Origin: a virus
Virus record (IMG/VR): IMGVR_UViG_3300037160_000083
Location: 1 to 20,802 of that record
Direction: 5' to 3' (one strand)
DNA length: 20,802 nt
Part shown: positions 7,843 to 20,770 of the stretch, in pieces
Layout of the letters: every line of letters starts with the position of its first letter
How positions within the stretch are numbered: the first letter of the stretch is position 1
Notes under the pieces: generated by a model
Told to the model about the DNA's origin: nothing
Databases searched by the model: none
Seen by the model: only the letters and a program-made list of their open reading frames with translations
Made by a program: the position numbers and the translations under genes

Positions 7843-8463
7843 TCAGTATACGATGGCAACGCTGGCAGCGTCGAGCACGGGAGGTAGTCTGACGAACTTC
7901 CCCGTCTCCCAAACCGGCGTGCGGCCTAACCGTAGCAGGCGGTCAAGCGTGAGCGGCCTGTACTGCATCAACTCCGCCGAGATCAGAATATGACGTCCGT
8001 CCTCTATCAGATTGCCACGGTGCCCGTACGGTGTGTGCAAGTGTCCATGGACGTTGAAGTGCGCGCCAAGTGCGTCGAGTACGCCGGACGGGAGAGGCTC
8101 GTGCGAGAACGTCAGCGTGCGTCCACGGTAGTCCAACACCGCGAGTTTGACTACAGCATCCCAGCCTAGTTTGAGCGACCAAGCGATACTTGGATTGTCG
8201 TGGTTGCCTAATACTAGTAGCGTGGAGACGAAGCGGGAACGGAGATCCGACAGGAATTGTCGAGCCAAGTCCTCGCCAGATCGGTACAGACATACGTCTC
8301 CTAAATTGATTAGTTGGTCACCGGAACGTAGGATTTGTAGGCCAGTTCGGATCGACTCGGCAAAATTGGCGGGACGATGTTCGAGTTCGACGAGTTTGTC
8401 GTGTCCGAGGTGCCAGTCGCTCGAAACGTAGATGTCGGGAACGCGGTCCTGGTCTAGATTCAT
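7843..8463 (-). CDS. Calcineurin-like metallophosphoesterase
   Basis: A 206-residue single-domain metal-dependent phosphoesterase. All five family motifs are present: D16-W-H18, G-D56 (LINLGDVCLY), G-N87-H88-D (LVLGNHDN), H121 (FSHEP) and H139-G-H141-L-H143. These residues build the di-metal site that hydrolyses phosphomonoesters or diesters. The substrate cannot be read from the sequence. The position directly after the tRNA array and near RtcB makes RNA-end or cyclic phosphate processing a reasonable guess only. TGCTATACT ends 8 nt before the ATG at 8463; AGGAA overlaps the gap, so either leaderless or SD initiation is possible. Confidence 0.85.
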   Translation of the reverse strand: MNLDQDRVPDIYVSSDWHLGHDKLVELEHRPANFAESIRTGLQILRSGDQLINLGDVCLYRSGEDLARQFLSDLRSRFVSTLLVLGNHDNPSIAWSLKLGWDAVVKLAVLDYRGRTLTFSHEPLPSGVLDALGAHFNVHGHLHTPYGHRGNLIEDGRHILISAELMQYRPLTLDRLLRLGRTPVWETGKFVRLPPVLDAASVAIVY

Positions 8464-8491: not shown

Positions 8492-8569
8492 TGGTGGCCC
8501 CGGAGCGAATCGAACGCTCGAACCTGTCGCTTAGAAGGCGACCGCTCTGTCCATCTGAGCTACGAGGCC
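8492..8569 (-). tRNA. tRNA-Arg(UCU)
   Basis: Anticodon TCT (complement at 8533-8535) reads AGA. The acceptor GGCCTCG pairs with CGGGGCC with one G-U, discriminator A, CCA encoded. D-loop GG and T-loop TTCGATT are canonical. Last tRNA of the array in transcription order. Confidence 0.95.
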
Positions 8570-8578
8570 GTGAGGTGG

Positions 8579-8652
8579 GGTGCGGTGGCGGAATCGAACC
8601 GCCGGCCTGATTCTTAGGAGGAATCCGCTCTGTCCTTCTGAGCTAACCGCAC
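8579..8652 (-). tRNA. tRNA-Arg(CCU)
   Basis: Anticodon CCT (complement at 8616-8618) reads AGG. Acceptor GTGCGGT/ACCGCAC is perfect and the T-loop is TTCGATT. The 3' end continues CCCACC, so a clean CCA is not encoded, unlike nearly all other tRNAs here. The preceding HNH stop lies 3 nt upstream. Confidence 0.93.
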
Positions 8653-8654
8653 GT

Positions 8655-9161
8655 TTACGCGAACAAGTACCTGTTCCAGACTTCCTGATCTCCTTGCATC
8701 AACCTCAACTTCGCGTGTATCCCAATTGATCTAGGCGGACGCGCGAGCGCCATCCCGGCTTCGGCTGGCGTCCTGTCGCCTTTACGATTATTATCGGAAA
8801 AACAACAGGCAACCAAATTGTCCCACGTCGATTGACCGCCGCGAGAGCGCGGCACCACATGATCCAAGGTGAGATCTTTGGACGGTAGCGTATGTCCACA
8901 GTACTGGCACGTGCTCTGATCGCGCAGAATAATTCCCTTACGCGAGACCGAACGGTTGAACCGCGGCACGCGCCGATACCGTACCAGCCGAATCACGGAC
9001 GGGAGACGGATCTCCAATTGCGAAGTGTGGATAACGTGGTCGGACGGAACTTCCACGACGGCTGCACACTTACAGATGAGCTTCATCGCACGACGTGCGG
9101 AACAGATGTGGATCGGTTCAAAACTGGCGTTGAGAACTAACACTAGATGATTTAGGCTCAT
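8655..9161 (-). CDS. HNH endonuclease (bacterial/phage 5-methylcytosine-type HNH family)
   Basis: A 168-residue protein. The N-terminal half (VLNASFEPIHICSARRAMKL, then RLPSVIRLVRYRRVP) and the C-terminal HNH core (CQYCGH, LTLDHVVPRSRGG, NRKGDRTPAEAGM) match a widespread stand-alone HNH family. The second metal-binding cysteine pair is altered: where ACxxCN is expected the sequence has ACCFSDN. It starts 9 nt after the RtcB stop and ends 3 nt before tRNA-Arg(CCU), so it is embedded in the tRNA transcript. A role as a mobile nuclease or in DNA processing is inferred. Confidence 0.9.
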   Translation of the reverse strand: MSLNHLVLVLNASFEPIHICSARRAMKLICKCAAVVEVPSDHVIHTSQLEIRLPSVIRLVRYRRVPRFNRSVSRKGIILRDQSTCQYCGHTLPSKDLTLDHVVPRSRGGQSTWDNLVACCFSDNNRKGDRTPAEAGMALARPPRSIGIHAKLRLMQGDQEVWNRYLFA

Positions 9162-9170
9162 GGTCTATCC

Positions 9171-10346
9171 CTAATCCCGGTACGGATCGACTTCCCGCTC
9201 GCCCGCCATCGCCACGCCAATCGGTTTCAACGCGTGCAAAACGCGAATACTTCCCGCGTGTTCCGCCAGCACGTCCGTCAACCGTTTGTAACAGTCCGGC
9301 GACTCGTCCACTCCAGCCCCGCGCAACTCCACGTCCGCACGGCTCACCCACCCGTCCATCATCGCCTGCGTTACCTTACCGACGCGCTTTACCTCACCCG
9401 TGCGCCGATCCACCTTTCCCTTCGCCTCCATCCTGCCCATAACTCGTCCAGCCCCGTGGATGGTCGAATAGAGGGATAGCCCCGCGTCTTCGTTCTCGAC
9501 GCCCTCGATTATGACCGAGATCTCTCCCATACTACCCCCGACGAATCCGCGCTGGCCGGGGAAAGCTGGCGTAGCTCCCTTACGAACCACCCACAACATT
9601 TCGCCTTGGTGCTCTTCACGCCACGCGAAATTATGGTTGTTGTGTACTTCCTCCAGCACGTTAGCGCCAAGGATCTTAGCCACCCGTTCGCTAACCCAGT
9701 CACGGCCTGCGTAGGCGTAACGTCCCGCCAACGTCATACAAGCGAGATAGTCGGCACCCATACTGTCGGTGGCCGAGATCACGCACGGCTCCACGTCCAT
9801 CCCGTCCTTCGCGCCGGCGGCGTTTAGGAAGTACGTCGCGGTTTTGTGTCCGAGTCCGCGCGATCCGAAATGTACGCCGATCCACACGCGCCCGAGTTCG
9901 TCCTCGAAGATGTCAACGTAGTGGTTGCCGGACCCGACCGTACCAAGTTGTTGGTGCGCCATTTCCTTAAGCGGCGCGACTGCGGTTAGTTTCCACGCAT
10001 CGTCGTCGAACAGTTCGTGGTCGATCCGCTCGTTGTTTTTTCGACCGACGCCGAAACTGATAATGCGAAACACGTCGTCCATAATCGTGGAGATGTTACG
10101 GCGCACGTCCGTTACGTCCGCGTCGGTTAGGATAGCGCGGTTTCCACAACTTATGTCGAACCCGACTCCCGACGGACTGATCTTGTCTTTGTACGCCACC
10201 ACCCCGCCTATAGGCACTCCATACCCAGCGTGGTGGTCGGCCATAAGCGCCACCCGGTCGGCGGTTTTAGCGCACGTTTTGATCTGGCGTAACGCCCACT
10301 CGTCCACGGGCGTACCCCATACTGGAATTCCATCGATTAGTTGCAT
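9171..10346 (-). CDS. rtcB: RtcB-type RNA ligase (3'-phosphate/5'-hydroxyl RNA repair)
   Basis: A 391-residue ligase that joins RNA ends left by tRNA-cleaving nucleases (2',3'-cyclic phosphate or 3'-phosphate to 5'-OH) using GTP and Mn2+. Metal and GTP motifs are intact: ADHHAGYGVPIG, SGVGFDISCGNRAI (Asp64, Cys67), VGSGNH (His142), VHFGSRGLGH (His159), HNNHNFAWRE, GATPAFPGQRG and the guanylylated His297 in HGAGR. The length fits the short RtcB subgroup. No archease or RtcA lies nearby. It sits inside the tRNA array between tRNA-Lys(UUU) and an HNH gene and shares their transcript, so repair of phage or host tRNAs cut by defence nucleases is the natural inference. Confidence 0.95.
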   Translation of the reverse strand: MQLIDGIPVWGTPVDEWALRQIKTCAKTADRVALMADHHAGYGVPIGGVVAYKDKISPSGVGFDISCGNRAILTDADVTDVRRNISTIMDDVFRIISFGVGRKNNERIDHELFDDDAWKLTAVAPLKEMAHQQLGTVGSGNHYVDIFEDELGRVWIGVHFGSRGLGHKTATYFLNAAGAKDGMDVEPCVISATDSMGADYLACMTLAGRYAYAGRDWVSERVAKILGANVLEEVHNNHNFAWREEHQGEMLWVVRKGATPAFPGQRGFVGGSMGEISVIIEGVENEDAGLSLYSTIHGAGRVMGRMEAKGKVDRRTGEVKRVGKVTQAMMDGWVSRADVELRGAGVDESPDCYKRLTDVLAEHAGSIRVLHALKPIGVAMAGEREVDPYRD

Positions 10347-10383: not shown

Positions 10384-10460
10384 TGGTCCGCCGAGCCGGT
10401 CCCGCCCCGGCTGCGTCCTGTTTAAAAGACAGGTCCACGTTCTCTCAGTGGTATCGGCGG
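10384..10460 (-). tRNA. tRNA-Lys(UUU) with altered elbow
   Basis: Acceptor CCGCCGA/TCGGCGG, discriminator A and CCA are encoded. Anticodon stem CCTGT/ACAGG with loop CTTTTAA. The T-loop is GGCGGGA instead of TTCRANY and the D-loop TGAGAGAAC has no GG but offers A18-G19 opposite G55-C56. First RNA upstream of rtcB. Confidence 0.85.
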
Positions 10461-10461
10461 A

Positions 10462-10539
10462 TGGTGCCAGATCGGAGGATCGAACTCCGCTTTAGCCGGT
10501 ATGTAAAGCCGGTCCAGGCGACCAGCCTGGGTATCTGGC
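10462..10539 (-). tRNA. tRNA-Val(UAC)
   Basis: Anticodon TAC (complement at 10503-10505) reads GUA. Acceptor GCCAGAT/ATCTGGC, CCA encoded, D-loop GG and T-loop TTCGATC. Oddities: A8 in place of T8, and a C-A mismatch closing the anticodon stem (31-39). Confidence 0.9.
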
Positions 10540-10546
10540 GAAACTT

Positions 10547-10621
10547 TGGTAGGCCCTTTGGGAATCTAACCCAATCCAGCGACTTTATAAGAATCGCACG
10601 CATACGGAGCGTCTAGGGCCT
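10547..10621 (-). tRNA. tRNA-Ile(UAU)
   Basis: Anticodon TAT (complement at 10587-10589) reads AUA directly, without needing lysidine modification of a CAU anticodon. Acceptor AGGCCCT/AGGGCCT, CCA encoded. D-loop TCCGTAT has G18-U19 and T-loop TTAGATT has U55-A56, a changed but complementary 19-56 pair. Confidence 0.9.
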
Positions 10622-10622
10622 A

Positions 10623-10698
10623 TGGCTCCCCGACCAGGATTCTAACCTGGAACCTCACGGTTAACAGCCGTGCTCTCTAACAGTTGAGATATCGGGGA
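10623..10698 (-). tRNA. tRNA-Asn(GUU)
   Basis: Anticodon GTT (complement at 10663-10665). Acceptor TCCCCGA/TCGGGGA, discriminator G, CCA encoded. D-loop AACTGTTA has U19 in the canonical position and T-loop TTAGAAT has A56, so 19-56 is U-A rather than G-C. Confidence 0.95.
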
Positions 10699-10707
10699 AT
10701 ATGCACT

Positions 10708-11464
10708 TTAAATGCCTACTGCAATCTTGAGATCCTGTTCGACGGCCTTACGACCACGAGCACCCTTTACGGTACCGGCATTCCAACCGTCTAACAACCC
10801 GTATTCCCTAGCTTCTTTCAAACTAGGGACCAACATGAGCCACGCTTCAAATGGCATGTCTCGACGGAACATATTGCAACGCATACAGGCCGCTACGACA
10901 TTCGTTCTCACGTGACCAATACTGTTATCAATACGATCAAGTGTCATCTTTCCGACTACGTCACCGCAGTACTCGCAGCCACCGGAAATCCTGTTTTTGA
11001 TAAATTGCCAATCGAGATCATTCTCTAGTCCACGTAGCTTATCGGACCTGCGGGAGTCGCAGAGTATAAACATGAACCGCTTGTCCAGGAGACTGTCTCC
11101 GAAGACGATCTACGGCTTTCCTTCTATCCAGTTCGCGCTGTTTAGCCAATGCCGTAGTCGGATATTTTTTCCTGTGCTCAACGTCGCATGTATAACAAAG
11201 GAACCTCCTATAAAAATTATTCCCAACCTTTCGGACGGCAAACCTAACCTCTGGCTCTTTTTGTCCGCAACCTTTGCAACAATGCTTGATCGGTGGTCGA
11301 TGTTCAGAAACGTACGCGATATGCTTCTCCCGATTGGCCTTATACCACAATCGGTTATAGTCAACCATACACGACTGACACCAAGTCTGTTTTGCTTGGT
11401 CTATTTTGCGTGTATAGAACTCGCTATCTTCTTTTATCTGCTTACACCGTGTACAAAACTTCAT
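10708..11464 (-). pseudogene. HNH homing endonuclease split by a +1 frameshift
   Basis: Two overlapping frames make one recognisable protein. The upstream frame (11039-11464) has two zinc-knuckle modules, FCTRCKQIK...WCQSC and HCCKGCGQK...LCYTC, then a basic linker. The downstream frame (10708-11073) has the HNH core: CEYCGD, KMTLDRIDNSIGH, NVVAACMRCNMFRRDMP and an EAWLMLVP tail typical of phage homing nucleases. Homologues that I recall carry these in one chain; here reading must move +1 near 11085-11095, where the two frames can be joined as RRQS to LLDKRF. No slippery heptamer is visible, so this is more likely a mutation than programmed shifting. The downstream ATG at 11073 has no SD. Confidence 0.75.
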
Positions 11465-11494
11465 ACAATCAGTGTACCACTTTTAAATGAAAAC

Positions 11495-11572
11495 TGGTGC
11501 GCCCAAAAGGATTTGAACCTTTGACCACACGCTTAAGAGACGTATGCTCTGACCAGACTGAGCTATGGACGC
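11495..11572 (-). tRNA. tRNA-Lys(CUU)
   Basis: Anticodon CTT (complement at 11535-11537). Acceptor GCGTCCA/TGGGCGC, CCA encoded, D-loop GG and T-loop TTCAAAT. Fully canonical elbow, in contrast to tRNA-Lys(UUU). Confidence 0.95.
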
Positions 11573-11580
11573 GAAACTTT

Positions 11581-11654
11581 TGGTAGCGCTAGCGGATCTC
11601 GAAACCGCATCGAATCCTTGAAGGGGATTCATCCTACCTTTAGACGATAGCGCC
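11581..11654 (-). tRNA. tRNA-Glu(UUC) with C33
   Basis: Anticodon TTC (complement at 11620-11622) in loop CCTTCAA, so position 33 is C instead of the near-universal U. Acceptor GGCGCTA/TAGCGCT with a G1-U72 pair, CCA encoded, T-loop TTCGAGA with a T-T mismatch at 53-61. Confidence 0.85.
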
Positions 11655-11655
11655 G

Positions 11656-11731
11656 TGGTCTCGTAGGTGAGAATTGAACTCACTGTCACTTCCTTGAGAG
11701 GGAAGGCGCTCGGCCGGTCGCGCTCTACGAG
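11656..11731 (-). tRNA. tRNA-Glu(CUC)
   Basis: Anticodon CTC (complement at 11696-11698). Acceptor CTCGTAG/CTACGAG, CCA encoded, T-loop TTCAATT, D-loop with GG. Only one nucleotide separates it from tRNA-Glu(UUC). Confidence 0.9.
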
Positions 11732-11741
11732 TCTTACAAAA

Positions 11742-11818
11742 TGGCGCTCCGTGGGAGGCACGATCTCCCCGTCTCTTGGTTGACAACCAAGCGCCTCGAC
11801 CATCTCGGCCTACGGAGC
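11742..11818 (-). tRNA. tRNA-Asp(GUC)
   Basis: Anticodon GTC (complement at 11782-11784). Acceptor GCTCCGT/ACGGAGC, discriminator G, CCA encoded, D-loop GG. T-loop ATCGTGC keeps U55-C56 but has A54. Confidence 0.93.
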
Positions 11819-11822
11819 AAAA

Positions 11823-11888
11823 GTGGGTGGGCGTCAATCAATCACACCGCCTGTTACATGAACCGATCTTACGATTCCGGTCACCCAC
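11823..11888 (-). ncRNA. CCA-less tRNA-like element of unknown identity
   Basis: It has the position and size of a tRNA in the array, with a perfect 7-bp closing stem GTGGGTG/CACCCAC. The interior lacks a normal anticodon arm. It can form GAATCG-TAAGAT-CGGTTC and GGTGT/ACGCC hairpins. The 3' end reads TTT, not CCA. It is either a badly decayed tRNA or an untranslated structural RNA. Confidence 0.35.
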
Positions 11889-11895
11889 AAATTTA

Positions 11896-12005
11896 TGGAG
11901 CGGCGAGGACGAATCGAACATCCGCGAGCCGGTTCGGTGTCGCGCCACCTTGCCGACCATGACACGGGCTGGAATCCCGTCGCTCTGCCACTGAGCTATC
12001 GCCGC
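11896..12005 (-). tRNA. tRNA-Gly(UCC) with a 40-nt structured variable arm
   Basis: Acceptor GCGGCGA/TCGCCGC, CCA encoded, D-loop GG, anticodon TCC (complement at 11971-11973), T-loop TTCGATT. Between the anticodon and T stems lie 40 nt (11924-11963) instead of 4-5. They fold into a 6-bp stem (GGTCGG/CCGGCT with wobble), a symmetric CAA/GAA internal loop, a 4-bp stem GGTG/CACC and a GCGCGA loop. Glycine tRNAs are normally class I, so this arm is very unusual. Confidence 0.85.
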
Positions 12006-12017
12006 ACAAACGAAACA

Positions 12018-12093
12018 TGGTCCGCTCATTCGGATTTGAACCGAAAGCTGCTCCTTCGGACGGAGCCGACCTGTCCAGTTGGTCGATGAGCGG
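12018..12093 (-). tRNA. tRNA-Arg(CCG)
   Basis: Anticodon CCG (complement at 12057-12059). Acceptor CCGCTCA/TGAGCGG, CCA encoded, D-loop GG, T-loop TTCAAAT, short variable loop. Confidence 0.93.
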
Positions 12094-12100
12094 TTAGAAT

Positions 12101-12189
12101 TGGGACGCCCGACAGGACTCGAACCTGCATAGAGCATTACGCTCCCACGTTCGTAGCGTGGTACCTGATCCAAATTAGGTTACGGGCGC
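12101..12189 (-). tRNA. tRNA-Arg(ACG) with a long variable arm
   Basis: Anticodon ACG (complement at 12152-12154), the type that is deaminated to ICG. Acceptor GCGCCCG/CGGGCGT with G1-U72, CCA encoded, T-loop TTCGAGT. The variable region is 16 nt and forms a GAGC-GTAAT-GCTC hairpin, a class II feature not expected for arginine. Confidence 0.9.
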
Positions 12190-12198
12190 GTGAAAACT

Positions 12199-12274
12199 TG
12201 GCAGCGGCGGCAGGATTTCAACCTGCGCGTGTTCGGGTCAGAGCCGAATGCCTTAAGCGCTTGGCTACGCCGCT
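12199..12274 (-). tRNA. tRNA-Gln(CUG)
   Basis: Anticodon CTG (complement at 12239-12241). Acceptor AGCGGCG/CGCCGCT, discriminator G, CCA encoded. T-loop TTGAAAT has G56; the D-loop AAGCGCTTAA offers G18-C19, a reversed but complementary 19-56 pair. Confidence 0.92.
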
Positions 12275-12298
12275 GTATAACTTGTACGTACTTCCGAT

Positions 12299-12374
12299 TG
12301 GCGGGGGCGCTCGGGCTCGAACCGAGACTCGGTGGAACCAAAATCCACTGCATTGCCTATTATGCTACGCCCCT
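12299..12374 (-). tRNA. tRNA-Gln(UUG)
   Basis: Anticodon TTG (complement at 12339-12341). Acceptor AGGGGCG/CGCCCCC with an A1-C72 mismatch, in keeping with the weak first pair favoured by glutaminyl-tRNA synthetase. Discriminator G, CCA encoded, canonical elbow. Confidence 0.92.
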
Positions 12375-12381
12375 TCAAACT

Positions 12382-12457
12382 TGGGTTGAGGTACGGGAAT
12401 CGAACCCGTCTTTGCGGTTCCACGGACCGCTGCCTAAACCGCTCGGCCAACCCCAAC
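12382..12457 (-). tRNA. tRNA-His(GUG) with C33
   Basis: Anticodon GTG (complement at 12421-12423) in loop CCGTGGA, so base 33 is C. The histidine identity pair is present: G at -1 (complement at 12457) opposite discriminator C73. CCA encoded; D-loop GG and T-loop TTCGATT are canonical. Confidence 0.93.
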
Positions 12458-12470
12458 ATGAAACTATAAC

Positions 12471-12700
12471 GCTAGCGTGCCGGTTAGGTCCCGGCTATGG
12501 CCGCATCGCGGGGTTTACATCCACCTGCCGATGAACAGGTACCCGCGAAATTAAAGCCGCGCGACAGTTTGAGCGCGGTTACTCTTGGCCCATGGCCGCC
12601 GATCTTCCTTCCACCTCTTCACGGGAGGTAATCTGACAATCGGCACCGTCCCAGGATGGGGCTCGGTTTCCACTGTACGATCCGTCGTACCGACGCTAGC
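12471..12700 (-). ncRNA. 230-nt structured RNA with tRNA-like ends, unknown class
   Basis: The termini pair perfectly over 8 bp (GCTAGCGT with ACGCTAGC), spaced like a tRNA acceptor. Two nt inside is a GTACGA-CGGA-TCGTAC hairpin in the D-arm position. The hairpin GCCGG-GACCTAA-CCGGC stacks directly on the 3' strand, like a 5-bp/7-nt T-arm. Between them are four more hairpins, including GCCGATT/GATCGGC enclosing ACCTC/GAGGT, CCGCGC/GCGCGG, and CGCGGG/CCCGCG enclosing ACCTG/CAGGT. There is no CCA. The topology recalls tmRNA, but G3-U70 and the usual 5' motif are missing. It fills the gap between tRNA-His and tRNA-Phe. Confidence 0.45.
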
Positions 12701-12704
12701 GACT

Positions 12705-12779
12705 TGGTGCCTGCTGCGGCGCTCGCATCCGCGTTACCGGCTTTTCAGACCGGCGCTACGCTATCTCAGCTAAGCAGGC
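12705..12779 (-). tRNA. tRNA-Phe(GAA) with altered elbow
   Basis: Anticodon GAA (complement at 12744-12746). Acceptor GCCTGCT/AGCAGGC, CCA encoded. T-loop TGCGAGC has G55-C56; the D-loop AGATAGCG offers A18-G19. The T-stem has an A-G mismatch at 53-61. Confidence 0.85.
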
Positions 12780-12787
12780 GAACTGAT

Positions 12788-12859
12788 GAGGTGGTAGTAG
12801 ACCTTTCGGTCCTCGTGCCGCAACGTTTATCGGCACTTCGCGGTTGCCCGCCACACCTC
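12788..12859 (-). ncRNA. 72-nt cloverleaf-like RNA with GNRA tetraloops, no CCA
   Basis: The whole 72 nt folds as a four-way junction. Closing stem GAGGTG/CACCTC; D-like arm GCGG-GCAA-CCGC; anticodon-like arm GTGCCG with a 10-nt loop and CGGCAC; T-like arm GACC-GAAA-GGTC. Every stem is perfectly paired, and two arms end in GNRA tetraloops instead of D and T loops. It lies between tRNA-Phe and the plus-strand HNH gene. It is not a translatable tRNA. A decoy, a processing signal or a remodelled tRNA are all possible. Confidence 0.45.
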
Positions 12860-12898
12860 GTAAAAATGGTGGACCTTGCTACGGTTTCATTGCAACCG

Positions 12899-12907
12899 TG
12901 CTATCCT
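12899..12907 (+). promoter_or_regulatory. Extended -10 (TGCTATCCT) for plus-strand HNH gene
   Basis: Identical to the nonamer before portal. The hexamer ends 7 nt before the ATG at 12915, predicting a leaderless transcript independent of, and opposed to, the tRNA array. Confidence 0.5.
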
Positions 12908-12914
12908 CATACTT

Positions 12915-13529
12915 ATGAACTCACGTTTCAATCCCTCTCAGATAACACGTACTTGCCCGAATTGTGGCAAACAATTCCAACCTCAAATGCGCGACGTTAA
13001 CCGAGGCTTTGGCAGATACTGTTCGGTAAGTTGCGGCTCGCAACATCGCCAACGTCAAAGGTACGGGCCGCGTATCGACACGACATGCGGATTTTGCTTA
13101 AAACCGTTAGTTAAATTGGCTAGCGAACTCGCAAAAAGTCATAGTGGCCTATTATTCTGCACCCGAAAGTGCAAGGATTCCGCCCAACGTATCGAAGCCG
13201 GGATCACGGCTATTCAGCCAAAACACTACGGAACCGCCGCAAATGTAAGCACCGAGATCTATAGAGCGATAGCGTTCAAACATCACGCGGCACGTTGCAA
13301 TCGTTGTAACTATGATCGTGTACCAGAGATACTGCATGTGCATCATTGTGACCGCGACCGCTCAAACAGGAAGCCAGAAAACTTAGAAATTATTTGCCCA
13401 ACTTGTCATGCCGAAGAACATTACTACGCTAAGGACGGCATGTTTGGCAAAAACAAGTACAAAGTGGTGGATCTCGTCGGCTCTGCCCCGACCGCCTCCT
13501 GCGTGCAAAACAGGCGCTCTCCTGAATGA
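12915..13529 (+). CDS. HNH endonuclease with zinc-finger N-terminus, plus strand
   Basis: A 204-residue protein, the only HNH gene opposed to the array. The N-terminus has two zinc-binding modules (TCPNCGKQF...YCSVSC and TCGFCLKPL...FCTRKC). The C-terminal HNH core reads CNRCNYDRVPEILHVHHCDR, RKPENLEIICPTCHAEEH. The ATG at 12915 is preferred over an upstream in-frame start because of the -10 at 12902-12907. The last ~22 codons are antisense to tRNA-Ala, so the gene has either inserted up to or run into the tRNA. A selfish element using a tRNA-array site is inferred. Confidence 0.88.
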   Translation: MNSRFNPSQITRTCPNCGKQFQPQMRDVNRGFGRYCSVSCGSQHRQRQRYGPRIDTTCGFCLKPLVKLASELAKSHSGLLFCTRKCKDSAQRIEAGITAIQPKHYGTAANVSTEIYRAIAFKHHAARCNRCNYDRVPEILHVHHCDRDRSNRKPENLEIICPTCHAEEHYYAKDGMFGKNKYKVVDLVGSAPTASCVQNRRSPE

Positions 13530-13540
13530 GCTAGAGACCC
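13465..13540 (-). tRNA. tRNA-Ala(UGC) with altered elbow
   Basis: Anticodon TGC (complement at 13505-13507). Acceptor GGGTCTC/GAGATCC contains the alanine identity pair G3-U70. CCA encoded. T-loop GGCAGAG has G54, G55 and C56; the D-loop ATTCAGGA has A18-G19 in canonical positions. The 3' half is overlapped antisense by the HNH gene. Confidence 0.88.
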
Positions 13541-13550
13541 GTAAACTGAT

Positions 13551-13643
13551 GAACGGCATCGTCGTCTGTCTCTGCCTGGATGTCTCCAAAACACGTTAGC
13601 GCGCGGGCATCCCCGTGGGTTTCGCATACATCGGATGCCGTTC
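13551..13643 (-). ncRNA. 93-nt element closed by a 10-bp stem, no CCA
   Basis: The ends pair perfectly over 10 bp, GAACGGCATC with GATGCCGTTC. Inside are GATGT/ACATC and a CGGG-GATG-CCCG hairpin. A second GATGCC could compete for the 5' strand, giving an alternative fold. A GTGT-TTTGGAG-ACAT arm looks like a proline anticodon loop, but no complete cloverleaf fits. It fills the spacer between tRNA-Ala and tRNA-Met. Its class is unknown. Confidence 0.35.
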
Positions 13644-13648
13644 AACTT

Positions 13649-13726
13649 TGGTAGCAGGACTAGGAATCTAACCTAGCTAGTTCTGCGTTATGAGCGCAGC
13701 GTGTGCAACAGCTCAACTTTCCTGCT
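13649..13726 (-). tRNA. tRNA-Met(CAU), probably elongator
   Basis: Anticodon CAT (complement at 13690-13692). Acceptor AGCAGGA/TCCTGCT, CCA encoded. It has no initiator-type GGG/CCC anticodon stem, and A1 pairs with U72. T-loop TTAGATT (A56) goes with D-loop U19 (AGCTGTTG). The D-stem is poorly paired. Confidence 0.88.
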
Positions 13727-13741
13727 ATAACTCTACAAACT

Positions 13742-13817
13742 TGGTACGCGCGGAAGGAGTTAAACCTTCTTGAACTATCTTATCAGGATAGCGCCTAAGT
13801 CGTTCAGCCACGCGCGT
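13742..13817 (-). tRNA. tRNA-Ile(GAU)
   Basis: Anticodon GAT (complement at 13782-13784). Acceptor ACGCGCG/CGCGCGT, CCA encoded. T-loop TTTAACT has U56 and the D-loop GAACGACTTA has G18-A19: the 19-56 pair is A-U. Confidence 0.92.
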
Positions 13818-13824
13818 ATGAAAC

Positions 13825-13900
13825 TGGAGCCGACGGCCGGGAACGATCCGGCGACCTTACCCTTACCAAGGGTACGCTCTACCACCTGAGCTACATCGGC
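13825..13900 (-). tRNA. tRNA-Thr(GGU)
   Basis: Anticodon GGT (complement at 13865-13867). Acceptor GCCGATG/CGTCGGC, discriminator U, CCA encoded, D-loop GG. T-loop ATCGTTC has A54. Very similar 5' half to tRNA-Thr(CGU), suggesting duplication. Confidence 0.93.
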
Positions 13901-13915
13901 GAAACCTTACGAAAC

Positions 13916-13991
13916 TGGAGCCGACGGAGACAATCGAAGTCTCGACCTCCGATTTACGAAAACGGCGCTCTACCACCTGAGCTACGTCGGC
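13916..13991 (-). tRNA. tRNA-Thr(CGU)
   Basis: Anticodon CGT (complement at 13956-13958). Acceptor GCCGACG/CGTCGGC, discriminator U, CCA encoded, canonical elbow with T-loop TTCGATT. One T-T mismatch in the anticodon stem. Confidence 0.93.
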
Positions 13992-13992
13992 A

Positions 13993-14068
13993 TGGAGCCG
14001 GGAGGGACGCTCGAAGTCCCACAGTCCACTTTACAGGAGTGGCGCTCTGCATCTTAAGCTATCCCGGC
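13993..14068 (-). tRNA. tRNA-Thr(UGU) with C33
   Basis: Anticodon TGT (complement at 14033-14035) in loop CCTGTAA, so base 33 is C. Acceptor GCCGGGA/TCCCGGC, discriminator U, CCA encoded. T-loop TTCGAGC is normal, but the D-loop AAGATGCA lacks GG; it keeps G19. Confidence 0.9.
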
Positions 14069-14072
14069 AAAA

Positions 14073-14160
14073 CTTTACGGCGGGCGCTCTACCATTGAGC
14101 TAACGGCCTCGGAAGCAAGGGAGGTCGTACTGGACTCGAACCGAACATCTCCCGCCTGCT
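14073..14160 (-). tRNA. Candidate circularly permuted (or rearranged) tRNA: 3' half precedes 5' half
   Basis: In transcription order a 3' half comes first (14160-14122): anticodon-stem strand GCGGG, variable AGATG, T-loop TTCGAGT and acceptor strand ACGACCT. After 12 nt comes a 5' half (14109-14073): acceptor strand AGGCCGT, TA, a perfect GCTC-AATGGTA-GAGC D-arm, and anticodon-stem strand CCCGC. Joined in tRNA order, the anticodon stem pairs 5/5 and the acceptor 6/7 (one C-A). The T-stem is damaged, no CCA follows, and the anticodon cannot be assigned. It is either a permuted tRNA gene or the scar of a tandem-duplication deletion. Confidence 0.55.
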
Positions 14161-14236
14161 TGGAGCGACCACCCGGCTACGATCCGGGAACCTCGACTTC
14201 GGCAAAGTCGCGCTCTACCCGTTGAGCTATGGCCGC
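14161..14236 (-). tRNA. tRNA-Gly(GCC)
   Basis: Anticodon GCC (complement at 14201-14203). Acceptor GCGGCCA/TGGTCGC, discriminator U, CCA encoded, D-loop GG. T-loop ATCGTAG has A54. The permuted tRNA halves follow its CCA immediately. Confidence 0.92.
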
Positions 14237-14243
14237 GAAACTT

Positions 14244-14444
14244 TGGTCGGTCCTGACAGTTCGCCGTTTGAGTTACCAGGATTTCACAGATGTTCCGTTA
14301 GCGCGAATCGTCATCCGCGCCGCTTTGTCTTCTGGTATCTACCTGTCGTCCACCGGCGATAAGGCCGGAGCACTTTTTCCATACCCGTCAGCTCGTGAGG
14401 TACGCCTCGGATCGCCCGCAAGGGTGGCTCAGTGCTTAGGACCG
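14244..14444 (-). ncRNA. 201-nt RNA with tRNA acceptor and encoded CCA, tmRNA-like topology
   Basis: The ends form a perfect 7-bp acceptor CGGTCCT/AGGACCG followed by discriminator A and CCA, exactly as in neighbouring tRNAs, but the interior is about 183 nt. It contains GAGG-CGTA-CCTC, CCGGC-CTTATC-GCCGG and GCGCG/CGCGC hairpins, a possible TGAG..ACC/GGT..CTCA long-range helix near the ends, and a GCACT/AGTGC pairing. There is no T-arm with UUC, no G3-U70 and no 5' GGUUCGAC signature. It could be a divergent phage tmRNA, a tRNA holding an intron, or a new CCA-ended RNA. Confidence 0.5.
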
Positions 14445-14457
14445 AAACTTTCAAAAA

Positions 14458-14533
14458 TGGAGCGTCCTGCGGGTAACCCTCCCGCTTAAAACTGGTTTGG
14501 AAGACCAGTGCCTCAGTTTTCGGCCAAGGACGC
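14458..14533 (-). tRNA. tRNA-Gly(UCC), second copy, altered elbow
   Basis: Anticodon TCC (complement at 14499-14501) in loop CTTCCAA. Acceptor GCGTCCT/AGGACGC, discriminator U, CCA encoded. T-loop AGGGTTA has G55-G56; the D-loop AAAACTGA can supply A18-C19. Unrelated in sequence to the other tRNA-Gly(UCC). Confidence 0.85.
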
Positions 14534-14615
14534 ACGTTTGTAAAACGACTTCCGATTCAAAGATCGACGGCCCGGTGGTCGTAACCACGCAAAGCCAATG
14601 TACCTATCGTTTAGA

Positions 14616-14972
14616 TCAATTCCAATTCTGGTACCACCCCGCCAGCAACTTCCCGCCGTCGGGCATCTCCGGATCGTACGGACGCGCTCTCAACTCTTCC
14701 CGGTACATCGCGCGTAACCGTCTCTGCCACAACCGTTTCATATCCATCGGCGGTGGGTAGAAGTAGTGGTTGCCGAACGGGTAACGTTCCTTCCGCCTGT
14801 ACAACCCCCGACGAGTCTCGTACTCGCGCGGGCTGAAGCATGAGCGCCGGTCGCCGTTACGGTTACCGTACGTGCCAGGTTTGTGGCGTCCGCAGTACCC
14901 GTCTTCCCCTATCGGTTCCCACACACGGGTTTCCGTACACAGGTCCCAATAGTGCGTGTTGTTTCTCGACAT
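14616..14972 (-). CDS. Small basic protein of unknown function within the tRNA array
   Basis: A 118-residue Arg- and aromatic-rich protein that I do not recognise. The N-terminal 50 residues contain three cysteines and a histidine (LCTETRVW, DGYCGRH, RRSCFSPREY), which could hold a metal. The C-terminal half is basic with several Tyr/Trp (KRLWQRRLRAMYREELRARP, GWYQNWN). The start at 14972 has GGAGG 13 nt upstream, rather far. It sits between tRNA-Pro and tRNA-Gly(UCC) on the same strand and is probably cotranscribed. RNA binding is a guess from charge only. The 80 nt after its stop (14535-14615) hold one GTGGT-TACG-ACCAC hairpin and nothing else recognisable. Confidence 0.55.
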   Translation of the reverse strand: MSRNNTHYWDLCTETRVWEPIGEDGYCGRHKPGTYGNRNGDRRSCFSPREYETRRGLYRRKERYPFGNHYFYPPPMDMKRLWQRRLRAMYREELRARPYDPEMPDGGKLLAGWYQNWN

Positions 14973-15023
14973 GTTAGCCTGTTATCCTCCTACAAAGCTG
15001 ACATGGCGCACCTCCTTAGAATT

Positions 15024-15101
15024 TGGTCTGGGCGGCTGGATTTGAACCAGCGAAAACCTGCTCCCAAGGCAGGTGGGCAAACCAGACTACCCTACGCCCA
15101 G
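15024..15101 (-). tRNA. tRNA-Pro(UGG)
   Basis: Anticodon TGG (complement at 15064-15066). Acceptor CTGGGCG/CGCCCAG, discriminator A, CCA encoded, D-loop GG, T-loop TTCAAAT. Canonical throughout. Confidence 0.95.
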
Positions 15102-15109
15102 ATGTACTA

Positions 15110-15155
15110 CCACAAAAACCAAACGGCCCGGAATTCCTTTCGGAAACCGGGCCGT
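15110..15155 (-). terminator. Rho-independent terminator-like hairpin inside the tRNA array
   Basis: Perfect 9-bp arms (15123-15131 and 15147-15155, core GGCCCGG/CCGGGCC) with an inner TTCC-TTTC-GGAA helix, followed on the minus strand by TTTGGTTTTT. It lies upstream of tRNA-Pro, so it would attenuate transcription from the 17 kb promoter before the remaining tRNAs unless they have their own promoter or the phage antiterminates. Confidence 0.65.
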
Positions 15156-15348
15156 CTTGAAATCGAACTTTATTCCAAGTCGGCTCAGGTCCCCATTGGA
15201 CGCGCGTCCGTATTGACAGTACGGGTCGGGCGCGTTGTGGGTTCCGCTATGGCGAAATGGAATTTCTGTCTCATCTTTTCAGGCCACTACGTTTCAACAA
15301 GTTCAGTATGCGCTAATTCCGTTTCGGAAAGCAAGCATTATTTTGAGA
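15156..15348. other. Gene-free stretch upstream of plus-strand small gene
   Basis: About 190 nt without a convincing gene. It has a GGACGCGCGTCC palindrome near 15198 and an isolated TTGACA at 15214-15219 with no matching -10 at normal distance. It separates the terminator from the plus-strand zinc protein gene. Confidence 0.35.
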
Positions 15349-15354
15349 TATTAT
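15349..15354 (+). promoter_or_regulatory. -10 hexamer TATTAT for leaderless plus-strand gene
   Basis: The hexamer ends 6 nt before the ATG at 15361. The intervening TGGAGC is too close to the ATG to be a good SD. Confidence 0.4.
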
Positions 15355-15360
15355 TGGAGC

Positions 15361-15648
15361 ATGCCCACTCGCGGTATCGGCTACGCCTTTCGCCAGCGTC
15401 CAGCCCAAGCACGGTTTTGTCCATGGTGCGGGGTGGAGTCGTTGGAACGGGATCAGTACAAACGGGATCGGCACAGTCACGGAGTCGGGAACGGCGGGTG
15501 CCATCCCGAGTTCGCATGTAGGACTTGCGGGTCGGGGTTCGAGCTACGGAACTCGTACAGAGCTGATCAGGCCGTGGCGTTGTTGCGCGCCGAGTCGCGC
15601 CTGCGCCCGGACGATTTTGAGAAGGTGGCGGAAGCGGAGTGGAGTTGA
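15361..15648 (+). CDS. Small zinc-ribbon-like protein, plus strand, unknown function
   Basis: A 95-residue protein. FCPWCG at about residues 19-24 and GCHPEFACRTCG around 48-59 supply two CxxC knuckles; a FELRNSYRADQA segment and an Arg/Glu-rich C-terminus follow. It probably binds zinc; I do not recognise a family with confidence. The start at 15361 fits the leaderless -10. The last ~7 codons are antisense to tRNA-Ser(CGA). Like the HNH gene at 12915, it is opposed to the array and butts against a tRNA 3' end. Confidence 0.55.
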   Translation: MPTRGIGYAFRQRPAQARFCPWCGVESLERDQYKRDRHSHGVGNGGCHPEFACRTCGSGFELRNSYRADQAVALLRAESRLRPDDFEKVAEAEWS

Positions 15649-15716
15649 ACCCTCAAGGCCGTTTAAGGACCAACTGTTTTCGAGACAGTTCCCGTCGCCA
15701 ATCGGTGTGCGCTTCC
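15626..15716 (-). tRNA. tRNA-Ser(CGA)
   Basis: Anticodon CGA (complement at 15680-15682). Acceptor GGAAGCG/CGCTTCC, discriminator G, CCA encoded, class II variable arm. T-loop TTCAACT; the T-stem carries one bulged A. The 3' end is overlapped antisense by the plus-strand gene. Confidence 0.9.
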
Positions 15717-15726
15717 ATAAAACTGG

Positions 15727-15800
15727 TGGAGGGCCGCGAGCGAATCGAACGCTCTGTCAATCGCTTTGCAGGCGATGTGGTCACCGTTTCCCTGCGACCC
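15727..15800 (-). tRNA. tRNA-Cys(GCA)
   Basis: Anticodon GCA (complement at 15767-15769). Acceptor GGGTCGC/GCGGCCC, discriminator U (a cysteine identity base), CCA encoded, D-loop GG, T-loop TTCGATT. Confidence 0.95.
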
Positions 15801-15808
15801 TTAAAAAG

Positions 15809-15850
15809 TGGCACACCCGCGAGGATTTGAACCCCAACGGGAGAACCGTT
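15809..15850 (-). pseudogene. Truncated tRNA: T-arm and 3' acceptor with CCA only
   Basis: T-loop TTCAAAT in a T-stem TGGGG/CCTCG, then acceptor strand CGGGTGT, discriminator G and CCA. No 5' acceptor strand (ACACCCG) or D-arm exists upstream, where tRNA-Trp ends directly. An AACGG/CCGTT hairpin precedes it. A remnant of a deleted tRNA. Confidence 0.7.
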
Positions 15851-16262
15851 AAACTTGGCACGGGGGCCGAGGATCAAACTCGGCTGACTGGTTTTGGAGA
15901 CCAGTCGCTTCTTCAGAAACACCCCCGCGTATCCTGATCCGACTCCTAACCCTGTGACAGCACGCACATACCAGATCGCATTTGGCGATTTCCCTATCAA
16001 TCCTTTCCTTTGACCAGCCCGCCCTAACTACCATAGCGATGTTAATGTCCTTCTGGCTCCCTGGCAAATGGTCAAAGTCCATCGCACAATAATGGAACTT
16101 CCGGCCACAGTCTGCGCAAGGCCCATTCTTGGCTTCACGGATAATATCTTCTGCCCTACGTTTTTGTAATGCTCTCGCCTTGATATATTGCTCTTTATGT
16201 GAATAATAGTGTCTCAGGCGCGCAGCTCGGTTTCTTTCATCCAACGGATTTTTGTATGGCAC
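15849..16262 (-). CDS. HNH endonuclease whose frame runs through tRNA-Trp
   Basis: A 137-codon frame. The family part is residues ~1-108: MPYKNPLDERNRAARLRHYY, a Lys/Arg helix, GPCADCGRKF, MDFDHLPGSQK, EIAKCDLVCACCHRVR, a small HNH group common in phages. The remaining ~25 residues are simply the tRNA-Trp sequence read as protein, with the stop just past the tRNA CCA. Insertion immediately 5' of tRNA-Trp is likely. It starts with GTG; TGGTATAAT ends 7 nt upstream, and TGGAG in the gap is too close for a strong SD. Confidence 0.85.
   Translation of the reverse strand: MPYKNPLDERNRAARLRHYYSHKEQYIKARALQKRRAEDIIREAKNGPCADCGRKFHYCAMDFDHLPGSQKDINIAMVVRAGWSKERIDREIAKCDLVCACCHRVRSRIRIRGGVSEEATGLQNQSAEFDPRPPCQV
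15856..15928 (-). tRNA. tRNA-Trp(CCA) with reduced D-arm
   Basis: Anticodon CCA (complement at 15895-15897). Acceptor GCGGGGG/CCCCCGT with G1-U72, discriminator G, CCA encoded. The D-arm is TTTC-TGAA-GAAG with only a 4-nt loop. T-loop TTTGATC has U56, matching G18-A19 in the D-loop. It lies wholly inside the 3' end of the HNH frame. Confidence 0.88.
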
Positions 16263-16269
16263 GGCTCCA

Positions 16270-16278
16270 ATTATACCA
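16270..16278 (-). promoter_or_regulatory. Consensus extended -10 (TGGTATAAT) before HNH gene
   Basis: The hexamer TATAAT ends 7 nt before the GTG start at 16262. It could also feed transcription into tRNA-Trp and the following tRNAs. Confidence 0.55.
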
Positions 16279-16327
16279 AATGCGGGTTGGAGTCGGCTTA
16301 CCTCACCATCGGTTACGGGTGCGTGGT

Positions 16328-16402
16328 TGGTGCCCGCTACAGGTCTTGCACCTGCACTGAACCGCGTTTAGGGCGGTTGCCTCTGCGTTGGGCTAAGCGG
16401 GC
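16328..16402 (-). tRNA. tRNA-Leu(UAA), class I shape, C33, altered elbow
   Basis: Anticodon TAA (complement at 16368-16370) in loop CCTAAAC (C33). Acceptor GCCCGCT/AGCGGGC, CCA encoded. The variable loop is only ~5 nt, although bacterial leucine tRNAs have long arms. T-loop TGCAAGA has G55; the D-loop can supply A18-G19. Confidence 0.85.
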
Positions 16403-16412
16403 AAACGTAACT

Positions 16413-16486
16413 TGGTCCCGGTAGTAGGTTCGACCCTACAGGACTTCTCTTTTGAGGAGAAGATGTCTGCCTTGCATCATACCGGG
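16413..16486 (-). tRNA. tRNA-Leu(CAA), class I shape
   Basis: Anticodon CAA (complement at 16452-16454). Acceptor CCCGGTA/TACCGGG, CCA encoded. Short variable loop GTCCT. T-loop GTCGAA is only 6 nt; the D-loop keeps GG. Confidence 0.88.
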
Positions 16487-16492
16487 TGAAAT

Positions 16493-16577
16493 TGGTGGGC
16501 TCGGAGAGATTCGCACTCTCATGCCTTTCGGCGCTCCGTTCTGAGCGGAGTCTGTATACTTGTTCCAGCACGAGCCC
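16493..16577 (-). tRNA. tRNA-Leu(CAG)
   Basis: Anticodon CAG (complement at 16541-16543). Acceptor GGGCTCG/CGAGCCC, CCA encoded. The only leucine tRNA here with a long variable arm, GCC-GAAA-GGC. T-loop TGCGAAT has G55; the D-loop GAACAAGTATA supplies A18-G19. Confidence 0.9.
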
Positions 16578-16578
16578 G

Positions 16579-16656
16579 TGGTGTTCGGGATGGGGGTCGA
16601 ACCCATAAGACAACGGTTCTTAACCGTTGATGTCTGCCAAATTGCATCACCCGAAC
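16579..16656 (-). tRNA. tRNA-Leu(AAG), class I shape
   Basis: Anticodon AAG (complement at 16619-16621). Acceptor GTTCGGG/CCCGAAC, CCA encoded, D-loop GG, T-loop TTCGACC. Short variable loop. A34 with leucine is uncommon in bacteria and would need deamination to read CUC or CUG. Confidence 0.9.
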
Positions 16657-16659
16657 GCT

Positions 16660-16748
16660 TGGTGGGCATCGCAGGATTCAAACCTGCACTCCCGGATGGG
16701 AACTCTGTTTTACAGACAGGCGCGGCCAATCGTATCCGCCTGATGCCC
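16660..16748 (-). tRNA. tRNA-Tyr(GUA)
   Basis: Anticodon GTA (complement at 16711-16713). Acceptor GGGCATC/GATGCCC, CCA encoded, class II variable arm TTCCC-ATCC-GGGAG as expected for tyrosine. T-loop TTTGAAT has U56 and the D-loop ATACGATTGG has A19. Confidence 0.93.
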
Positions 16749-16782
16749 AAAACGTTAAATTGTCAAAGATCAAATATCAGAA

Positions 16783-16872
16783 TGGCGGAGAAGGCCAGAT
16801 TTGAACTGGCGGTGGTGTTATCCACGGTCGGTTAGCAACCGACTGCCTTAAGCCTGACTCAGCCACTTCTCC
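16783..16872 (-). tRNA. tRNA-Ser(GCU)
   Basis: Anticodon GCT (complement at 16834-16836). Acceptor GGAGAAG/CTTCTCC, discriminator G, CCA encoded, class II variable arm, T-loop TTCAAAT, D-loop GG. First tRNA after the array promoter. Confidence 0.95.
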
Positions 16873-19924: not shown

Positions 19925-20146
19925 TTAGTCTGCCCGCCGAATGTACTGCAATGGCGGACGTTGTTTGTCGCCTACCTCCGATGTGCAGGAGGGGCAAGGC
20001 TCTTTCTCCTCCTCCGCTAAAAAAGCCTTCACGGCCTCGTCGTCGTCAACAAATATTTGGGATAGGTGCCATTCCTGGTAATGACCGCACAATTTTTTGA
20101 CTGGCGTTAATACCAAACCGAATACCGAATCGTCGTCAGTCGTCAT
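19925..20146 (-). CDS. Small acidic protein with C-terminal CxxC, unknown function
   Basis: A 73-residue protein. The N-terminus is MTTDDDSVFGLVLTPVKKLC and is followed by an acidic middle (FVDDDEAVKAFLAEEEKEP) and PCPSC near residue 53, which could pair with Cys20 and His22 for zinc. The start overlaps the HNH stop (ATGA at 20143-20146). The gene is bracketed by the two copies of a 23-bp direct repeat, as if inserted or duplicated as a unit. Confidence 0.55.
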   Translation of the reverse strand: MTTDDDSVFGLVLTPVKKLCGHYQEWHLSQIFVDDDEAVKAFLAEEEKEPCPSCTSEVGDKQRPPLQYIRRAD

Positions 20147-20598
20147 TGTCTCTCCCCCAACGTCTTCGCGCTATGGCACACCGAGCACAACGTCTGCAAA
20201 TTATCCAGATCGTGCCGTAACTCCGGCGCAACCCTGATCGGAACCGTATGGTCGGCGTGGAGGTGCCGTTCCTTCTGCCTAAACCGCCATCTTAGCTCTT
20301 CCAGCACGCGTGACGGAGTTGGTACGGACACCGTATCCAGTCCCGTCTCCCTCGCTTCCCTACTCAACCTGAAAATATCCGGTTCCCACCCGCACCGTCG
20401 GCACCTCCACTCGTCTCTCACGAAACAACGGACGCGCAACACCTGGAATAGTTCGTCGTACCCGCGCCCGGTCGAGGACCCGCGCGCTCTACTCGCCCCG
20501 CCCTTACACACCGTACACATCCCTCCCGTATCCGTCAGTTCCACGCACCCCGGCGTGCGACACGGACGTAACGGGAGGGACGAGGTCGGAGGCGTCAT
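20143..20598 (-). CDS. HNH endonuclease, packaging-associated type
   Basis: About 151 residues from the ATG at 20598. The N-terminus has CRTPGCVELTDTGGMCTVC, a zinc module, then RGYDELFQVLRVRCFVRDEW and WRCRRCGWEP, and the HNH core LHADHTVPIRVAPELRHDLD-N followed by LCSVCHSAKT. HNH proteins of this type are often encoded near terminase genes and can stimulate TerL cleavage; here it opens the operon that contains terS. The ATG at 20664 would add 22 residues but lies upstream of the promoter, so the internal start is chosen. Confidence 0.85.
   Translation of the reverse strand: MTPPTSSLPLRPCRTPGCVELTDTGGMCTVCKGGASRARGSSTGRGYDELFQVLRVRCFVRDEWRCRRCGWEPDIFRLSREARETGLDTVSVPTPSRVLEELRWRFRQKERHLHADHTVPIRVAPELRHDLDNLQTLCSVCHSAKTLGERQ
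20147..20169 (-). repeat. 23-bp direct repeat, copy A
   Basis: Covers the last codons of the HNH gene (KTLGERQ). Identical copy at 19898-19920, 249 bp away on the same strand. Confidence 0.9.
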
Positions 20599-20606
20599 CA
20601 CCCGGT

Positions 20607-20636
20607 AGTATACAGCAGTTTGACAATTTTCCGCAA
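20607..20636 (-). promoter_or_regulatory. Promoter of the HNH-terS operon, leaderless
   Basis: -10 TATACT (20607-20612) and -35 TTGCGG (20631-20636) with an 18-bp spacer on the minus strand. The -10 ends 8 nt before the ATG at 20598, so the transcript would begin at the start codon. Confidence 0.6.
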
Positions 20637-20639
20637 ATT

Positions 20640-20770
20640 CGCACAAACTTATGTACGAAGACATTCGTACGTCGATCTTACTACTAATTAGTTAGTAATG
20701 TTAACGACAGTTGACATAGGTTAACGAAATATGTTAACGACTACGAAGACCTTCGTACGAACGCTATACT
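20640..20770. promoter_or_regulatory. Intergenic region with paired palindromes and GTTAACGA repeats
   Basis: Two near-identical inverted repeats, GTACGAA-GACA-TTCGTAC (20653-20670) and TACGAAG-AC-CTTCGTA (20742-20757), flank three copies of GTTAACGA (about 20699, 20719 and 20733) and a TTGACA (20711). TATACT at 20764 on the plus strand may serve a gene outside the window. This resembles a cluster of repressor or operator sites. Confidence 0.5.

Follow-up and report, generated by a model that had tools for sequence, protein, structure and literature searches.

Matched replacement of conserved elbow base pairs in the transfer RNAs of a phage array

Does translation require the particular bases of the transfer RNA (tRNA) elbow pairs G18-U55, G19-C56 and U54-A58, or merely the geometry that these pairs provide? 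Phage tRNA arrays appear to offer a natural experiment on this question. In reviews, G18-Psi55 (Psi, pseudouridine), G19-C56 and U54-A58 are regarded as either universal or highly conserved (PMC4810234, PMC7912444), and exceptions include the pyrrolysine tRNA (tRNA-Pyl) and mitochondrial tRNAs, in which the contact between the D and T loops is altered or lost (PMC7609411). Here we describe a 20.8-kb record of a soil virus (IMGVR_UViG_3300037160_000083, positions 1-20,802; hereafter the window) that carries a minus-strand tRNA array at 10388-16872, adjoining a gene for an RtcB-type RNA ligase. An earlier note on this DNA had claimed that about 13 of its tRNAs replace elbow bases in matched pairs.

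The tRNAs were located with a stem-only parser, whose score takes in the stems, features of the anticodon loop, positions 8 and 14 and the CCA end but ignores the bases of the T loop and those at positions 18-19. Because the T loop is set by a 5-base-pair stem and a 7-nucleotide loop, positions 54-58 are unambiguous. In the window this parser recovers 30 tRNAs, each with an encoded CCA, compared with about 35 on first reading and 28 reported by ARAGORN, which omits Lys(UUU), Ala, Met, Tyr and Gly(UCC)-2. The standard bacterial elbow is replaced at 18-55 or 19-56 in 13 window tRNAs, which span eleven amino acids, and at 54-58 in six. Matching D-loop bases are present in all 12 of the altered tRNAs that were parsed, and the thirteenth, tRNA-Met, is matched in an Rfam alignment. 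The claim of matched partners thus holds.

All of the altered tRNAs lie on the minus strand. Replacements at 19-56 take three forms. A U19-A56 pair is found in tRNA-Ile(UAU) (10551..10621; D-loop TCCGTAT, T-loop TTAGATT), which also has A8-U14, in tRNA-Asn(GUU) (10627..10698; D-loop AACTGTTA, T-loop TTAGAAT) and in tRNA-Met(CAU) (13652..13726; T-loop UUAGAUU). The last of these was left unparsed on account of its poor D stem, and the Rfam alignment, in which the 19-56 pair is not modelled, sets a U under G19 and an A at T-loop position 56. An A19-U56 pair occurs in tRNA-Ile(GAU) (13746..13817; D-loop AACGACTT, T-loop TTTAACT), tRNA-Trp(CCA) (15860..15930; D-loop TCTGAAGA, T-loop TTTGATC) and tRNA-Tyr(GUA) (16664..16748; D-loop ATACGATTGG, T-loop TTTGAAT), and C19-G56 occurs in tRNA-Gln(CUG) (12203..12274; D-loop AGCGCTTA, T-loop TTGAAAT).

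The 18-55 pair is replaced by A18-G55 in tRNA-Phe(GAA) (12709..12779; D-loop AGATAGCG, T-loop TGCGAGC), tRNA-Leu(UAA) (16332..16402; D-loop AACGCAG, T-loop TGCAAGA) and tRNA-Leu(CAG) (16497..16577; D-loop AACAAGTAT, T-loop TGCGAAT). The same change is accompanied by G54-G58 in tRNA-Lys(UUU) (10388..10460; G19-C56 kept; D-loop TGAGAGAAC, T-loop GGCGGGA) and in tRNA-Ala(UGC) (13469..13540; D-loop ATTCAGGA, T-loop GGCAGAG), the latter retaining G3-U70 as read from its sequence. All three elbow pairs are replaced in tRNA-Gly(UCC)-2 (14462..14533; A18-G55, C19-G56 and A54-U58; D-loop AAAACTG, T-loop AGGGTTA). The remaining three replacements at 54-58 are A54-U58 pairs in tRNA-Asp(GUC) (11746..11818), tRNA-Thr(GGU) (13829..13900) and tRNA-Gly(GCC) (14165..14236), whose elbows are otherwise normal. 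The parser also agrees with the earlier note in setting tRNA-Thr(UGU) apart (13997..14068, minus strand; D-loop AAGATGCA, T-loop TTCGAGC): it has U18 with a normal UUC and is therefore an unmatched exception.

The numbering of positions 18 and 19 was checked by aligning the array tRNAs to a covariance model trained on 19 canonical acidobacterial tRNAs, in which 18-55, 19-56 and 54-58 were unmodelled. This pair-blind alignment reproduced the pattern that had been read by eye. For 19-56, the covariation score was 0.224 in one test (shuffled mean 0.085) and 0.093 in the other (shuffled mean 0.017), and none of 500 shuffles, which were uncorrected for kinship, reached the observed values. One slid control (+3) outscored the true register in one of the two tests.

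Related arrays, reached through RtcB searches, show the same type of matched change. Erythrobacter phage L02 (L239), T5 (L241) and T4 (L240) were added, giving 22 loci that contain tRNA arrays of phages or mobile elements, with 415 parsed tRNAs in all. Two of these loci (L006 and L099) have nearly the array order of the window. Others include an array from a Bryobacterales metagenome-assembled genome (L074), whose RtcB, at 80% identity, is the closest found, and the Tunturiibacter jumbo phage Tunturi_5 (L073). Across the set, 44 of the 415 tRNAs depart from U55-C56, and 40 of the 44 carry matching bases at 18 and 19, whereas 20,000 permutations gave a mean of 13.2 matched cases and a maximum of 25. 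Two further arrays reached by a T-arm pattern (L336 and L339) add seven altered tRNAs, all of them matched. Chance or biased reading is accordingly rejected by the stem-only parser, the permutation and the pair-blind covariance model together.

The relatives have changed in different tRNAs from those of the window, which argues for several independent events. The clearest comparison is provided by tRNA-Phe. The L074 copy has G18-U55 (D-loop AGATGGCA, T-loop TTCGAGC), whereas the window copy has D-loop AGATAGCG and T-loop TGCGAGC; the loops are almost unchanged near the elbow, which leaves no ambiguity about the replacement of G18 by A and of U55 by G. Over all arrays, each of the four Watson-Crick combinations occurs at 19-56, either G-U or A-G is found at 18-55, and 54-58 is U-A, A-U or G-G. 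The four unmatched cases are C19/A56 (L093 Thr), G19-U56 (L093 Ile), U19-G56 (L073 Phe) and A19/G56 (L228 Arg), and the two that are wobble pairs may represent intermediates. The tRNA-Ile(GAU) genes of the window and L093 share an identical T loop and differ in having A19-U56 and G19-U56, respectively. Another possible intermediate is the A19 with C56 in tRNA-Glu of L099, where L006 has G19. As a separate observation, the tRNA-Thr(UGU) genes of L155 (6017-6088) and L156 (9243-9310) have a very small D arm with the loop AGTAG, and the L156 copy also has A56.

Covariation extends beyond what the earlier note described, both to 54-58, where U-A gives way to A-U or G-G, and to 8-14, a pair outside the elbow with the same replacements. 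Among 402 array tRNAs, the 8-14 pair is U-A in 318, A-U in 16 and G-G in 9, and A8 is associated with U14 (Fisher p=1.8e-11). The Levitt pair 15-48 is C-G in nine tRNAs and U-A in another nine, and 53-61 is A-U in 14. Elbow swaps show no association with changes at 8-14, 15-48 or 53-61. Given the compensatory alternatives at 8-14 and 15-48, the pattern can be accounted for by general drift under conserved geometry, without any benefit specific to the elbow, and an explanation confined to the elbow is weakened.

The altered genes otherwise look like sound elongator tRNAs. Swapped and canonical array tRNAs have similar stems (6.36 versus 6.45 acceptor pairs and 4.70 versus 4.72 T-stem pairs). 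The 12 swapped tRNAs parsed in the window have intact stems and 7-nucleotide anticodon and T loops, averaging 6.83 of 7 Watson-Crick pairs in the acceptor stem, 4.67 of 5 in the anticodon stem and 4.83 of 5 in the T stem. Their discriminator bases (N73) are of the bacterial type: G in Gln, Asn and Trp; U in Gly; and A in Tyr, Leu, Ile, Ala, Phe and Lys. Complete stems, correct discriminators and an encoded CCA indicate that the altered tRNAs are not products of decay, as the earlier note had argued from the matched partners, and the absence of association with other core departures points the same way.

Cellular tRNAs provide the baseline. RtcB relatives point to a probable acidobacterial host for the window phage, and in one acidobacterial genome, that of Terracidiphilus gabretensis, all 46 parsed tRNAs are canonical, with GG and TTC.A. 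A strict T-arm pattern with C56 has matches in all of 99 Acidobacteriota genomes. The strict T-arm and CCA pattern without C56 gave 69 matches in these genomes, and the 39 that were inspected include just two tRNAs, each of them an Ala(UGC) gene with A19-U56 that lies within a tRNA array; one further match resembles the 3' end of a transfer-messenger RNA. A host with unusual tRNAs of its own is therefore rejected for Acidobacteriota as far as tested.

We favor the explanation, at a probability of roughly 0.6, that selection on three-dimensional geometry maintains the array tRNAs as working adaptors, while the identity of the elbow bases drifts through compensatory double changes. The array tRNAs would replace host tRNAs that are damaged or depleted during infection, as the adjoining ligase gene suggests, and RtcB itself may repair cut tRNAs. 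Such changes would be closed to cellular tRNAs, because each of these meets modification enzymes and other readers of the elbow throughout the life of the cell; this constraint may be weaker for tRNAs that are used only during infection. The route of change probably leads via wobble pairs or single mismatches, and some of these intermediates would still be visible. Escherichia phage T5 is informative here, because its tRNA-Ile1(GAU) likewise has A19-U56 with U54-A58 kept, and its record annotates this tRNA as convertible to an amber suppressor. This annotation indirectly suggests that array tRNAs can be charged and used by ribosomes. T5 differs from the window in that only one of its parsed tRNAs is changed at 55-56, compared with the 13 that are altered in the window.

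Several considerations weigh against this explanation. The array tRNAs are known here from sequence alone, and the reason offered for a fixed elbow in cells is argued from general knowledge. Three of the matched cases are trivial, in that U55 became C with GG kept, and their removal leaves 37 of 41. Part of the matching, about 30% by the permutation, comes free because D-loop length varies. The shuffles make no correction for common descent, and there are relatives among the array tRNAs, such as those of L006 and L099 or the tRNA-Ala genes of L093 and the window. Finally, elbow swaps affect a larger share of the tRNAs in the window than in the other arrays (12 of 30 tRNAs versus 32 of 385; p=1e-5, ignoring shared ancestry), and uniform drift does not predict this excess.

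That last imbalance bears on the alternative that matched swaps were selected because they hide tRNAs from a host nuclease, toxin or modification enzyme that reads GG at 18-19 or U54-U55-C56. Either type of swap destroys both motifs, the array adjoins RtcB, and the window's elbow swaps are also enriched relative to 8-14 changes (p=0.008, ignoring shared ancestry). Anticodon-loop mutations have been proposed to let phage tRNAs evade nucleases (PMC10264068), a strategy of which matched swaps would be the elbow counterpart, and AriB of the PARIS system is reported to contact the D loop base-specifically (PMC12409363). The swap richness of the window and the reported D-loop reading by AriB are points in favor of a pressure specific to the elbow. 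However, U55-C56 is kept in 18 of the 30 parsed window tRNAs, pairs outside the elbow covary too, and the literature searched yielded no defence effector that reads the elbow. We know of no such defence system either. Escape from elbow readers is thus a tenable but unlikely explanation. About as unlikely is the proposal of an arms race over the elbow, in which a host effector or modification enzyme would read GG/TPsiC and arrays would rewrite 18-55, 19-56 and 54-58 as matched pairs that the ribosome accepts and the effector does not see.

It is improbable that the swaps instead reflect independence from modification, whereby a burst of phage tRNA outruns the host enzymes TruB, TrmA and TrmH, and alternative pairs stabilize the elbow without pseudouridine-55, ribothymidine-54 or 2'-O-methylguanosine-18. 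The A18-G55, A54-U58 and G54-G58 pairs do remove modified bases, and modifications of the T loop and G18 are described as stabilizing the elbow (PMC7912444). Nevertheless, U54 and U55 are retained in the 19-56 swaps, and stability of the elbow without modifications is conjecture. Altered elbows are also known in specialised non-ribosomal tRNAs, and the staphylococcal cell-wall tRNA-Gly type is one isoacceptor in which the D/T contact is lost. A specialised tRNA-Gly of this kind has been described (PMC4810233), but a similar role in the window, with elbows altered to avoid the ribosome or EF-Tu, is very improbable given matched changes across eleven amino acids and retained identity elements; here the contact is replaced rather than lost. 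Equally implausible is the idea that the altered genes are pseudogenes, or remnants without a role in translation, that appear matched through chance or selective reading, for although some window tRNA pieces are broken (near 14066-14160 and at 15801-15850) and four of the 44 altered tRNAs are unmatched, the 40 matched cases, the sound stems, discriminators and CCA ends and the seven of seven in further arrays already contradict it.

The surroundings of the array are those of a phage. A dense cluster of tRNAs for most amino acids is combined with genes for a portal protein and the large and small terminase subunits, as in known phage tRNA arrays. A megablast search of the array against GenBank phages gave no match. 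Portal relatives were distant and were left out of further analysis, and terminase relatives, which were mostly short, were scanned with the other loci. The RtcB gene (9171..10346, minus strand; PF01139, 7.7e-67) stands beside the array, an arrangement shared with L006, and two canonical tRNA-Arg genes (UCU and CCU; 8496..8652, minus strand) lie on its far side, again as in L006. A requirement for RtcB is rejected, since swaps also occur in array L336, whose 14 kb contain no RtcB match. At 2284-17996 of L006, the near-syntenic array and RtcB occur together with a TROVE (Ro60-like) protein, McrBC-like genes, a subtilase, an AAA ATPase and an integrase, and we label this region a putative RNA-repair and defence-like island.

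The other minus-strand genes of the window include a calcineurin-like metallophosphoesterase (7843..8463), a ferritin-like protein (416-916) downstream of the portal gene and the terminase large subunit (5731-7791). The last has an insert of about 140 amino acids that interrupts the Walker A region, is not present in relatives and resembles a mini-intein. HNH or HNH-like genes are scattered inside and around the array: those at 8655-9161 and 20143-20664 have HNH family matches, the one at 12876-13529 has a weak match, and those at 10708-11464 and 15849-16262 are probable members judged by sequence only. Within the array, tRNA-Gly(UCC)-1 (11895-12005, minus strand) has a full cloverleaf whose variable region carries an additional, fifth arm about 30 nucleotides long, which is unusual for tRNA-Gly. 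At 14066-14160 (minus strand), two tRNA halves stand in swapped order (3' half, about 8 nucleotides, 5' half) and form 6 of 7 acceptor pairs and 5 of 5 anticodon-stem pairs with a poor T stem; they may be either what is left of tandem tRNAs or a gene of the permuted type. Between the Cys and Trp genes, a truncated tRNA 3' half (15801-15850, minus strand) comprises a T arm, acceptor strand and CCA without a 5' half.

Some features of the array have counterparts in known systems. Zagryadskaya, Kotlova and Steinberg (2004) reportedly selected suppressor tRNAs with randomised D and T loops in vivo. Selections of this kind share with our analysis the matter of which elbow combinations work in translation, but they draw on laboratory libraries, and all nine variants in one set retain GG and U55-C56 (PMC6337575). 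The phage tRNAs for which escape through the anticodon loop has been proposed also depart from the host at conserved sites, in many tRNAs and in a setting of tRNA damage and repair (PMC10264068). In the window, by contrast, the changes lie in the elbow and tertiary core and come as matched pairs, and escape is conjecture; the terms elbow, T-loop and D-loop are absent from the main text of that study. Dense arrays covering most amino acids are known from phages, plasmids and other mobile elements (PMC5966550, PMC12803027) and are considered a putative antidefence system (PMC12803027). The main texts of both reports lack D-loop and T-loop terms, and PMC12803027 notes structural differences in the D arm. 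Like the tRNAs of the arrays, tRNA-Pyl and animal mitochondrial tRNAs lacking GG/TPsiC are natural tRNAs without standard elbow bases (PMC7609411). Their D loop is reduced or the contact altered or lost, whereas the array tRNAs have loops of normal size in which each lost pair is exchanged for another. The open-licence literature searched yielded no description of compensatory elbow changes in phage tRNAs; an earlier report may exist beyond it, notably in older work on T5 tRNAs.

Annotation tools can miss tRNAs with swapped elbows, as the ARAGORN result illustrates. The matched replacements number in the dozens and affect many isoacceptors, which suggests that the fold, and not the exact letters, must be kept. 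Phage arrays therefore offer ready-made double and single variants with which to probe the ribosome, RNase P, aminoacyl-tRNA synthetases and modification enzymes, and arrays with swapped elbows may reveal forms of immunity that read this part of the tRNA.

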